From positions 1 through 64,000 of the forward strand of contig CABYFG010000001.1 of assembly GCA_902518185.1 (NCBI GenBank): a DNA stretch of 64,000 bases, read 5' to 3'. Position numbers and translations under genes: made by a program. Shown here one piece after another: positions 49,700-52,349 of this stretch. The notes beneath the pieces were generated by a model. The model had not been told where the DNA came from. It worked only from the letters and a program-made list of their open reading frames with translations, and made no database searches. Positions within the stretch are counted from its first letter, which is position 1. Every line of letters begins with the position of its first letter. This DNA is from an uncultured Pelagibacteraceae bacterium (GTDB lineage Bacteria > Pseudomonadota > Alphaproteobacteria > Pelagibacterales > Pelagibacteraceae).

Positions 49700-49722
49700 C
49701 TTGCGGAGACAAACTCCGCAAG
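49700..49722. terminator. GC-rich hairpin between convergent lipoprotein and hsp20 genes
   Basis: CTTGCGGAG-ACAAA-CTCCGCAAG, perfect 9-bp stem; no strong T-tract on either side. Confidence 0.65.
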
Positions 49723-49732
49723 CAAGGCAAAC

Positions 49733-50179
49733 TTATTTAATCTCTATAAGCTTTTTCTTTTTATGTTCTGGCACTATTCTTTCACACGATATTGTTAAAA
49801 GACCATCTTTAAGTTCTGCACCATTTACTTTCACATCATCAGCAATAGTGAACGATCTTGCAAATTGTCTTTGTGATATACCTTTGTGTATAATCTCACC
49901 ATTATCACTTTGGTCTTGAGATTTATTAACTTGTTTTGTTCTTACAGTTAATAAATTATCCTCAAATTCAACCTCAACATCTTTTTTATTAAAACCAGCC
50001 AGAGCTACTTCGATAGCGTAATTGTCTTTGCTAGTTTTTCTAATGTTGTATGGCGGATAATTTGACTGCATAGTCATTGTGCCATTCCCTAACATATTTT
50101 CAAATTGATCAAACATATCGTCGAAACCAATTGAAAATGGTCTTAGGGAGTTAAATATAGATAGATCCTTACTTGTCAT
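49733..50179 (-). CDS. Hsp20/alpha-crystallin small heat-shock protein (IbpA-like); start ATG 50179
   Basis: YPPYNIRKTSKDNYAIEVALAGFNKKDVEVEFEDNLLTVRT...LKDGLLTI; strong SD AGGAGG before MTSKDL. Confidence 0.95.
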   Translation of the reverse strand: MTSKDLSIFNSLRPFSIGFDDMFDQFENMLGNGTMTMQSNYPPYNIRKTSKDNYAIEVALAGFNKKDVEVEFEDNLLTVRTKQVNKSQDQSDNGEIIHKGISQRQFARSFTIADDVKVNGAELKDGLLTISCERIVPEHKKKKLIEIK

Positions 50180-50183
50180 ATTT

Positions 50184-50231
50184 CCTCCTTTGTTAAGCAA
50201 GTTTATTGAAAGCCCCATTAGGCGACTTTCA
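50184..50231 (-). promoter_or_regulatory. Candidate ROSE-type RNA thermometer in hsp20 5' UTR
   Basis: 5' hairpin TGAAAGTCGCC-TAAT-GGGGCTTTCA, then CUUGCU-UAACAA-AGGAG, where UUGCU can pair with SD AGGA leaving one bulged G (ROSE signature). Confidence 0.65.
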
Positions 50232-50237
50232 TATTTT

Positions 50238-50266
50238 TATATGGTATTTCTTTAAAAATTTTCAAG
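50238..50266 (-). promoter_or_regulatory. RpoH (sigma32)-like promoter for hsp20
   Basis: Minus strand CTTGAAA (50266-50260), 13-nt spacer, TACCATATA (50246-50238), versus consensus CTTGAAA-N13-CCCCATNTA. Confidence 0.7.
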
Positions 50267-50273
50267 ATTTAAA

Positions 50274-52349
50274 TTAAAGTTTTTTTGCAATCTTTAAGGC
50301 AAAGGCATAATCTAATGCTATCTCCTCAATTGCACCATCTCTACCAGATTTCCCGCCATGACCTGCTTCCATTTCAGTCTTTAAAAGTAATAAATTATTA
50401 TCTGTTTTATAATCTCTAAGTTTTGCAGTGAACTTTGCGGGCTCATCAAACAAAACTCTGTTATCATTTAAGCTTGTTGTGATTAAGATATGAGGATAAT
50501 CCATTTTTTTTATATTATTATATGGAGCATAAGAATAAATATATTCAAAATGATCTTTATTATCTTTAGCATTACCAAATTCATCAAACTCTCCGACAGT
50601 TAATGGCAAAGAATGATCTAGATTGGTTGTCAAAGAGTCTACAAATGGCACTGCCATTATGATACCTAAGAATAATTCTGGGTTCATATTTACTACTGCT
50701 CCCATTAATAACCCACCAGCTGATCCGCCCATACCAATAATCTTACCTTTTGATGAATATTTTTTTTCGATTAAATATTTGGCTGCATATATGTAATCTC
50801 TAAAAGTATTTTTTTTATTTGTTAGTTTTCCCTCTTTCCACCATTTCATGCCCTTTTCCATTCCACCTCTTATATGAGCAGTCGCCCAAATTATATTTCT
50901 GTTTATCAAGCTTAATTTTGTAGATGAAAAACTTGGACTCATTGAATTACCATATGACCCATAACCATAAAGTAAAACATTGGCTGATCCATCCATTTTA
51001 GTTTTTATATGTCTCGTTATGGTTAGTGGGACTAATCTTCCATCATGAGATTTGTATTCTACTCTTTCTACGATATAATCTTCAGGATTATGCCCTGAGG
51101 GAATTATTTGCTCTTTAACGATTTTTTTTTGTTTTGTTGAGAGATCATACAAATATACTCTTGAAGGAGTTTTTGGAGAGGAATATCCAATATAAATTTC
51201 ATCAGTGTTTTTATCTTTTTGTCTAAAAGAAATATTTGGTACACAGACTTGCTCATTTGAAAGAATAATCTCTTCCTCTAAACCAGTATGAATGTTTCTA
51301 ACAAATAGCTTGTCTAGCGCATTAGATGTCTCTGACCTTATTATCCAGTTTTTTAAAAATACACAACCACCAATTAAAACCTCATCCTTGGCTGCGATAT
51401 AAGTTTTCCAATTTTGTCTTTCTAAACTTTCTGAAACTTCAATCTTAAAATCCTCAGCATTTTCATTTGTGTGGTTATAAAATTTATTATCCCACGAATT
51501 AACTGAATACAAAACACCTTTATTTCTTTTCTTTATCAATTTAGGATAAGGTATTTTTTCATCTGTTCTAAAATAATACTGCTCAGATGTATTATGATCT
51601 GAAGTAGAAATAAAAAAATATTTTTCATCTGAACTTAAATTAATACTTACTGTAAAAGCCTTACTTATTTCCTCAAAAACTAGATCATCTGACTTATCAA
51701 AATTACCTATTTCATGTCTAAAAATTTTTCTTGCACGATGGTTATTGTCTAATTTCGAATAAAAAATATATTTATCATCTAAACTGAATGTAATGCTACC
51801 AGAAGTGTCATAGATTTGTTTAGTAACAATTTTGTTTGTCTCAATGTTTCTTATAAAAATAGTATAATATTCAGATCCTTTAACATCTAATGAGTAAGCT
51901 AAATACTTATCATTATGGCTTACTTCAAGATCACCCACACCAAAATATTCAACACCCAATTTTTTTTTTTCTTCATCTCCATTCCAAATTTCTTCAATTT
52001 TTTTTGAGTTAATTTTTCTTCTTAGTTTTATTGAATAATTTCCCTCAATTGTAGTTTTAGTCCAATATTCATAAGAATGATCTTTGTAAGGCAAGGATTC
52101 ATCATCAAGTTTTATTCTTCCCTTAATTTCATGAAAAATTTTTTTTTGTAGATTTTTTGTATCTTTTAAATGATATTCAGTATAATTATTTTCTTCAATT
52201 AAATATTTTTTTACCTCTGGATTAAGTTTATTTTTGTCTTTAAGTACTTCTAAAATGTTTTTTTGATGAATCCAGCTATAGTCATCCTCCCAGGTTATAT
52301 TGTGACAAGATTTTATTTCTGGTATTTTTCTAAGTTGTGGTACTTTCAT
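50274..52349 (-). CDS. ptrB: S9 family prolyl oligopeptidase / oligopeptidase B
   Basis: GMGGSAGGLLMGAVVNMNPELF nucleophile, AGHGGKSGR histidine, 691 aa. Confidence 0.94.
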   Translation of the reverse strand: MKVPQLRKIPEIKSCHNITWEDDYSWIHQKNILEVLKDKNKLNPEVKKYLIEENNYTEYHLKDTKNLQKKIFHEIKGRIKLDDESLPYKDHSYEYWTKTTIEGNYSIKLRRKINSKKIEEIWNGDEEKKKLGVEYFGVGDLEVSHNDKYLAYSLDVKGSEYYTIFIRNIETNKIVTKQIYDTSGSITFSLDDKYIFYSKLDNNHRARKIFRHEIGNFDKSDDLVFEEISKAFTVSINLSSDEKYFFISTSDHNTSEQYYFRTDEKIPYPKLIKKRNKGVLYSVNSWDNKFYNHTNENAEDFKIEVSESLERQNWKTYIAAKDEVLIGGCVFLKNWIIRSETSNALDKLFVRNIHTGLEEEIILSNEQVCVPNISFRQKDKNTDEIYIGYSSPKTPSRVYLYDLSTKQKKIVKEQIIPSGHNPEDYIVERVEYKSHDGRLVPLTITRHIKTKMDGSANVLLYGYGSYGNSMSPSFSSTKLSLINRNIIWATAHIRGGMEKGMKWWKEGKLTNKKNTFRDYIYAAKYLIEKKYSSKGKIIGMGGSAGGLLMGAVVNMNPELFLGIIMAVPFVDSLTTNLDHSLPLTVGEFDEFGNAKDNKDHFEYIYSYAPYNNIKKMDYPHILITTSLNDNRVLFDEPAKFTAKLRDYKTDNNLLLLKTEMEAGHGGKSGRDGAIEEIALDYAFALKIAKKL

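Follow-up and report, generated by a model that had tools for sequence, protein, structure and literature searches.

A ROSE-like leader, probably an RNA thermometer, behind a sigma-32 type promoter upstream of hsp20 in SAR11 bacteria

Introduction

Cells of the SAR11 group rank with the most numerous in the sea, and they have very small genomes with few protein regulators. That ROSE elements precede small heat-shock genes is well established for both alpha- and gammaproteobacteria. The DNA analysed here is a stretch of 64,000 nucleotides from an uncultured member of the Pelagibacteraceae (contig CABYFG010000001.1, hereafter the window), in which a sequence-only reading had proposed that a heat-shock promoter and a compact ROSE-like RNA thermometer are packed together in the short gap before a small heat-shock gene. 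We asked whether this gap does hold such a double control, and whether the arrangement is a property of the family. If a thermometer does sit in this gap and is retained by nearly all sampled SAR11 genomes with hsp20, unseen by current Rfam models, it would show that temperature sensing at the level of translation survived genome streamlining, and it would offer a testable handle on the response of these bacteria to warming.

Results

The hsp20 gene and its setting

The hsp20/ibpA-like gene lies at 49733..50179 on the minus strand and encodes a small heat-shock protein of 148 aa. The protein matches the NCBIfam IbpA model with an E value of 9e-30, yet remains under the equivalog cut-off of that model; this match confirms the small heat-shock gene that had been read downstream of the leader. 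Pelagibacteraceae relatives carry Hsp20 proteins up to 96% identical to it, and 118 of the 127 good genomes of the family have the gene, nearly always as one copy per genome. The upstream neighbour is a prolyl-oligopeptidase-like ORF (oligopeptidase B model) that ends at 50274, so that the intergenic gap is only 94 nt long and holds the promoter, a leader of about 52 nt and the sequence AGGAGG. The inverted repeat CTTGCGGAG..CTCCGCAAG (49701-49726), located between the end of hsp20 and a convergent small lipoprotein-like ORF, is probably a bidirectional terminator.

The ATG start of hsp20 is at 50179-50177 on the minus strand. An in-frame upstream ATG at 50218 ("MGLSINLLNKGGN") was rejected as the start because it sits within hairpin 1 (described below), and also because its spacing to the conserved ATG differs among relatives, so that the frame is not kept. 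Gene callers that used it would lengthen Hsp20 by 13 residues, an extension that the relatives do not support. Folding of the plus strand of the leader region revealed nothing.

A sigma-32 type promoter is conserved across the family

The hsp20 leaders of the home genome and of its family, the Pelagibacteraceae (SAR11), were gathered, 160 in all; 159 of them could be parsed for a promoter. In the window, a -35 element of the sigma-32 (RpoH) type, CTTGAAA, is found at 50260..50266 and a -10 element, CCATAT, at 50239..50244, both on the minus strand. An RpoH-type promoter match was found in 156 of the 159 parsed leaders; the -35 element contains CTTGAA in 136 and ATTGAA in 20, and the spacer is 15 nt long in 148. 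A strict form of the pattern was present in 76/159 native sequences and in 1/795 shuffled ones. A pattern search for the promoter motif within the single home genome gave 8 matches versus 6 in the control, which is not significant; the weight of the promoter call therefore lies in its conservation across relatives. Together with the boxes themselves, which are as the sequence-only reading had described them, this conservation substantiates a sigma-32 promoter upstream of hsp20. An rpoH gene scores above its curated cut-off in the same genome, and transcription of hsp20 would presumably depend on sigma-32. Because the -10 box ends 4-9 nt ahead of hairpin 1 in nearly all family leaders, transcription would start at about 50230-50233, at the foot of hairpin 1.

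Three family members (L078, L085 and L130) keep a ROSE-like leader without a recognised RpoH-type promoter. One of them, L130, which represents a second hsp20 type in genome G057, has TTGACA..TATAAT-like boxes together with the palindrome CATATATG.

The first hairpin covaries

Hairpin 1 (UGAAAGUC-G-CC / UAAU / GGGGCUUUCA) occupies 50207..50231 on the minus strand and was identified by both folding and covariation. Its core in the family leaders is UYGCY opposite RGGR, with a G that is invariant and always unpaired, and its outer stem is very different among genomes, although the pairing is nonetheless kept. In a test set of 36 leaders less than 90% identical to one another, 96.3% of the hairpin 1 cells were paired, compared with 84.1% after shuffling, and 35 cells were changed on both sides, compared with 8.9. 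Both sides had changed in seven of the nine pairs, and the covariation score was 0.508 versus 0.274 for shuffled leaders, a value reached by none of 500 shuffles, these shuffle controls being inflated by the relatedness of the sequences. When the pairing partner was slid along the same 36 leaders, a control that retains relatedness, no offset came near the observed pairing. RNAalifold recovered the same hairpin with no structure supplied. A stable 5' hairpin ahead of the candidate sensor hairpin is a ROSE-like feature, and it is the one that hairpin 1 provides.

The anti-SD strand of the second hairpin is invariant

Hairpin 2 (CUUGCUU / AACA / AAGGAG), the thermosensor candidate, spans 50185..50201 on the minus strand, with its anti-Shine-Dalgarno (anti-SD) strand, CUUGCUU, at 50201-50195; the Shine-Dalgarno sequence (SD), AGGAGG, is at 50184..50189 on the same strand. 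The motif CU(U/C)GCU precedes the SD in all 160 leaders, also in lineages with different first codons. Its G is likewise invariant in 160/160, and from the sequence and the predicted fold G50198 is either bulged or opposed to G50187. All leaders except three have the five ROSE pairs intact; those three lose the loop-adjacent U-A pair, and in two leaders with UCGCU a C-G pair replaces U-G. Loss of the UUGCU/AGGA pairing in relatives, which the sequence-only reading had named as the finding that would count against it, was looked for and not seen. The two-hairpin leader with UUGCU opposite the SD thus stands, given the universal motif and the covariation of hairpin 1. Compensatory change across SAR11 leaders, the other family comparison that had been proposed, is strong for hairpin 1, whereas hairpin 2 has zero compensatory changes and an invariant SD side. 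Hairpin 2 does not covary because its SD side cannot vary, and with covariation absent the case for it rests on the invariance of the anti-SD strand. Alignment A1 had the SD misaligned in five rows, which lowered the pair counts of hairpin 2; the MAFFT alignment A2, in which the two anti-SD types were out of register, was left out of model building.

A pattern search of the whole home genome for CTTGCT-N3-12-GGAG gave 13 occurrences. Judged by their ORF context, only that of hsp20 forms an anti-SD and SD before the start of a plausible gene. The UYGCU-SD arrangement was found in 0/65 window ORFs called by their first ATG, and of the window ORFs with 100 aa or more only 5/65 have an SD-like sequence ahead of the first ATG, which makes a strong AGGAGG such as that of hsp20 an exception in this stretch.

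The first codons can compete for the anti-SD strand

With a short coding part, the preferred fold of the leader is hairpin 2, the SD being about 78% paired at 20-25°C, and this predicted fold sets G50198 opposite G50187. The Bradyrhizobium structure is reported to have the same arrangement: instead of bulging out as expected, its G is paired to a G on the opposite strand of the stem (PMC11342760). The SD-hiding fold that had been proposed dominates in the window when 8 or 30 nt of the gene are included, but not with 24 nt, where a pairing that had not been foreseen competes: the minimum-energy fold joins CUUGCUU to AAGUAAG in codons 2-4 (50168..50174, minus strand; P 0.96), and the SD then lies largely open in a loop. 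In nearest-neighbour energies, neither construct folded shows more than a slight change in predicted SD accessibility between 5 and 42°C. Because these energies ignore the non-canonical G pair, the balance of the two folds cannot be read from them.

We therefore weighed whether the hairpin between CUUGCUU and codons 2-4, which loops out the SD and the start, is the main cold lock or a competing second state. Besides being the minimum-energy fold of the window, it agrees with a strong synonymous bias: among non-redundant genes, 34/34 have AGT as codon 3 and 36/36 have AAG as codon 4, where the rest of the gene gives backgrounds of 16% and 28%, and in synonymous bias the two codons rank first and third among the positions of hsp20. 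Such fixation over that background implies some constraint at the RNA level at codons 3-4. In addition, the leader of genus g9 (L072) can form an even longer pairing with its own, different codons. However, the pairing is lost or weakened in lineages that keep UUGCU (those with MKELS and MTKHL starts, and other alphaproteobacteria), and its pair counts fall within those of shuffled sequences, 33 to 455 of 500 shuffles reaching the observed values. Comparison of native sequences with synonymous randomisations was inconsistent, with a mean P of 0.22 versus 0.07 and most single sequences not significant. We consider it unlikely that this pairing is the lock or a second state of it. The pair counts give no support to the codon 2-4 pairing as a covarying helix, and we keep it solely as a rival of, or an addition to, hairpin 2.

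Synonymous fixation in hsp20 is visible at 50176-50165 of the window and in codons 5-12 (AGT and AAG, also CTA, ATA and AAC). In sister genera, codons 4-9 are able to fold into a hairpin within the coding sequence, and one position of it is occupied by several types of pair.

A family model finds the leader where Rfam does not

The sequence-only reading had taken classical ROSE as the family to search with, which proved not to be the best choice. Rfam at gathering level found no ROSE in the whole window, and a permissive search of the window leader matched no ROSE model, both giving chance matches only. In other genomes, the best match below threshold was ROSE_3 (RF02523), on the right strand and precisely where the leader lies (L102, 25.2 bits; L271, 34.5 bits), but above its gathering score it was found in 0/289 sampled alphaproteobacterial genomes and 0/14 control genomes. 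The ROSE_3 model is thus narrow, since none of the 289 genomes of the class reaches its cut-off, and current annotation will miss such elements.

We built a covariance model, R1, from 36 SAR11 leaders only, and ran it over 385 Alphaproteobacteria genomes. R1 includes nine codons, so that a small share of its score is coding sequence. R1 and hsp20 were each found in 214/297 family genomes, and the genomes listed as lacking the one and those listed as lacking the other differ in only two cases. An R1 element placed before a small heat-shock gene and co-occurring with it across the family is a further ROSE-like feature. Outside the family, 11 of the 17 best R1 loci (L270-L286) are directly upstream of an hsp20 ORF, and both hairpins are aligned in the ten R1-hsp20 loci listed there. 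Could the ROSE motif be a chance match in an A+T-rich leader? The promoter pattern in the single genome is not above its control and Rfam finds nothing in the window, as chance would have it, but the conservation in 160/160 leaders, the covariation of hairpin 1 and the recovery of the element before hsp20 in unrelated families leave this reading with practically no probability. Chance resemblance is refuted by the conservation data already.

Four of the loci outside the family (L273, L276, L277 and L281), all from one alphaproteobacterial family, have hsp20 with a ROSE-like leader and without a sigma-32 promoter. Their promoter is sigma-70-like and overlapped by a palindrome such as TGACATATTGACATTATGTCAATATGACA; the control of transcription has been swapped while the RNA part stays.

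ROSE-like leaders also precede rpoH

With R1, the range of ROSE-like leaders widens to further alphaproteobacteria and, as had not been expected, to rpoH: three of the 17 best non-family loci (L274, L275 and L285) are directly before rpoH. The leader of L275 (the same locus as L325) reads AAGAACUGCUGUAGCAAGGGUUCUUAAUCUUGCUUAAUAAGGAG before the rpoH start. At L327, in a sister genome whose RpoH is 54% identical, R1 scored 31.2 bits with the second hairpin less well aligned. The rpoH leader of SAR11 itself has no visible ROSE element. These matches suggest that the heat-shock sigma factor itself is under ROSE control in the alphaproteobacteria of L274, L275, L285 and L327. If this is true, the master heat-shock regulator RpoH is translated under a ROSE thermometer.

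The loci without a sigma-32 promoter and those before rpoH also bear on another explanation, in which the leader is an element of mRNA stability and initiation, hairpin 1 shields the 5' end, UUGCU is kept for some other reason such as the binding of a protein or a small RNA, and heat control is purely transcriptional. It would fit with covariation being confined to hairpin 1 and with the small effect of temperature on predicted SD accessibility, and a sigma-32 promoter might be enough for heat control. Yet UYGCU remains invariant opposite the SD even where no sigma-32 promoter is recognisable (L078, L085 and L130 in the family; L273, L276, L277 and L281 outside it), and a UYGCU element also stands before rpoH in other bacteria. 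We regard this explanation as improbable, more so than the pairing with the first codons.

Discussion

Taken together, these data make it very likely that hsp20 in SAR11 is controlled by a ROSE-like RNA thermometer that follows a sigma-32 promoter, and the leader probably hides the ribosome-binding site until warming. In the mechanism that we propose, heat would raise sigma-32 activity, and the hsp20 transcript would begin a few bases ahead of hairpin 1, which may act as a stable 5' structure that guards the transcript and prevents misfolding of the leader. Hairpin 2 would hold the SD weakly paired to CUUGCU around one non-canonical G, and warming would melt it and make the SD accessible to the ribosome. 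Of this picture, the analysis shows the sequence elements with their conservation and context and the covariation of hairpin 1, while the start of transcription, the dependence on sigma-32, the hiding of the SD inside cells and its release on warming are inferred.

A broader proposal is more tentative: that a compact ROSE element acts on alphaproteobacterial rpoH, and that in SAR11 the anti-SD strand is shared by the SD and the first codons as a two-state lock. We put it forward as a possibility with the odds somewhat against it.

A literature search, in which subscription journals were thinly covered, found no report of a ROSE element or RNA thermometer in SAR11, and a 2009 RNA screen of P. 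ubique does not mention hsp20, heat shock or thermometers. The thermometer-like leader of SAR11 hsp20 has apparently not been described before. According to a 2014 review, the ROSE family is always associated with small heat-shock genes (PMC4166951), and later work extends it to ABC transporters (PMC11342760); no paper on rpoH with ROSE in the present sense was found in our search. The rpoH leaders are therefore a more surprising and more novel lead than the compact form before SAR11 hsp20. The short architecture put forward by the sequence-only reading is real, but its novelty is not, since two-hairpin compactness is already known from Pseudomonas ibpA (PMC3669281) and ROSE_3.

The SAR11 leader has the ROSE-like features that we tested at the level of sequence, and it is best described as ROSE-like, not as a ROSE_3 recognised by Rfam; the elements nearest to it are the two-hairpin thermometer of Pseudomonas ibpA and ROSE_3. 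With ROSE_3 (RF02523) it shares the two-hairpin layout, the unpaired G in the UGCC/GGG core of hairpin 1, the CUYGCU/AGGAG helix and the AUGAC start, whereas relatives in the family reach only 17-25 bits, the gathering score being 43, and the window is unmatched. Classical ROSE elements (Bradyrhizobium hspA, E. coli ibpA) likewise precede small heat-shock genes and set U(U/C)GCU with a non-canonical G opposite the SD, but they have three to four hairpins, and the SAR11 leader is far shorter and lacks the additional 5' hairpins. The E. coli rpoH thermometer is similar in that coding sequence helps to mask the region of the start, much as it would in the alternative SAR11 pairing, but it differs in gene, structure and size, with up to 229 nt of coding sequence involved (PMC4166951). 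The likeness to the Pseudomonas ibpA thermometer (PMC3669281) extends to a leader of about 60 nt with two hairpins only, a stable hairpin I, a hairpin II that pairs the SD to U(U/C)GCU, a sigma-32 promoter and a small heat-shock gene, and, if our placement is right, to a transcription start at the foot of the first hairpin. In Pseudomonas, hairpin II is sufficient for thermoregulation, and hairpin I stays unmelted (PMC3669281). Compared with it, the SAR11 leader is shorter and A+T-rich, its core has no G-C clamps on both sides, the loop of hairpin 2 is closed by A-U pairs, and codons 2-4 may compete for the anti-SD strand.
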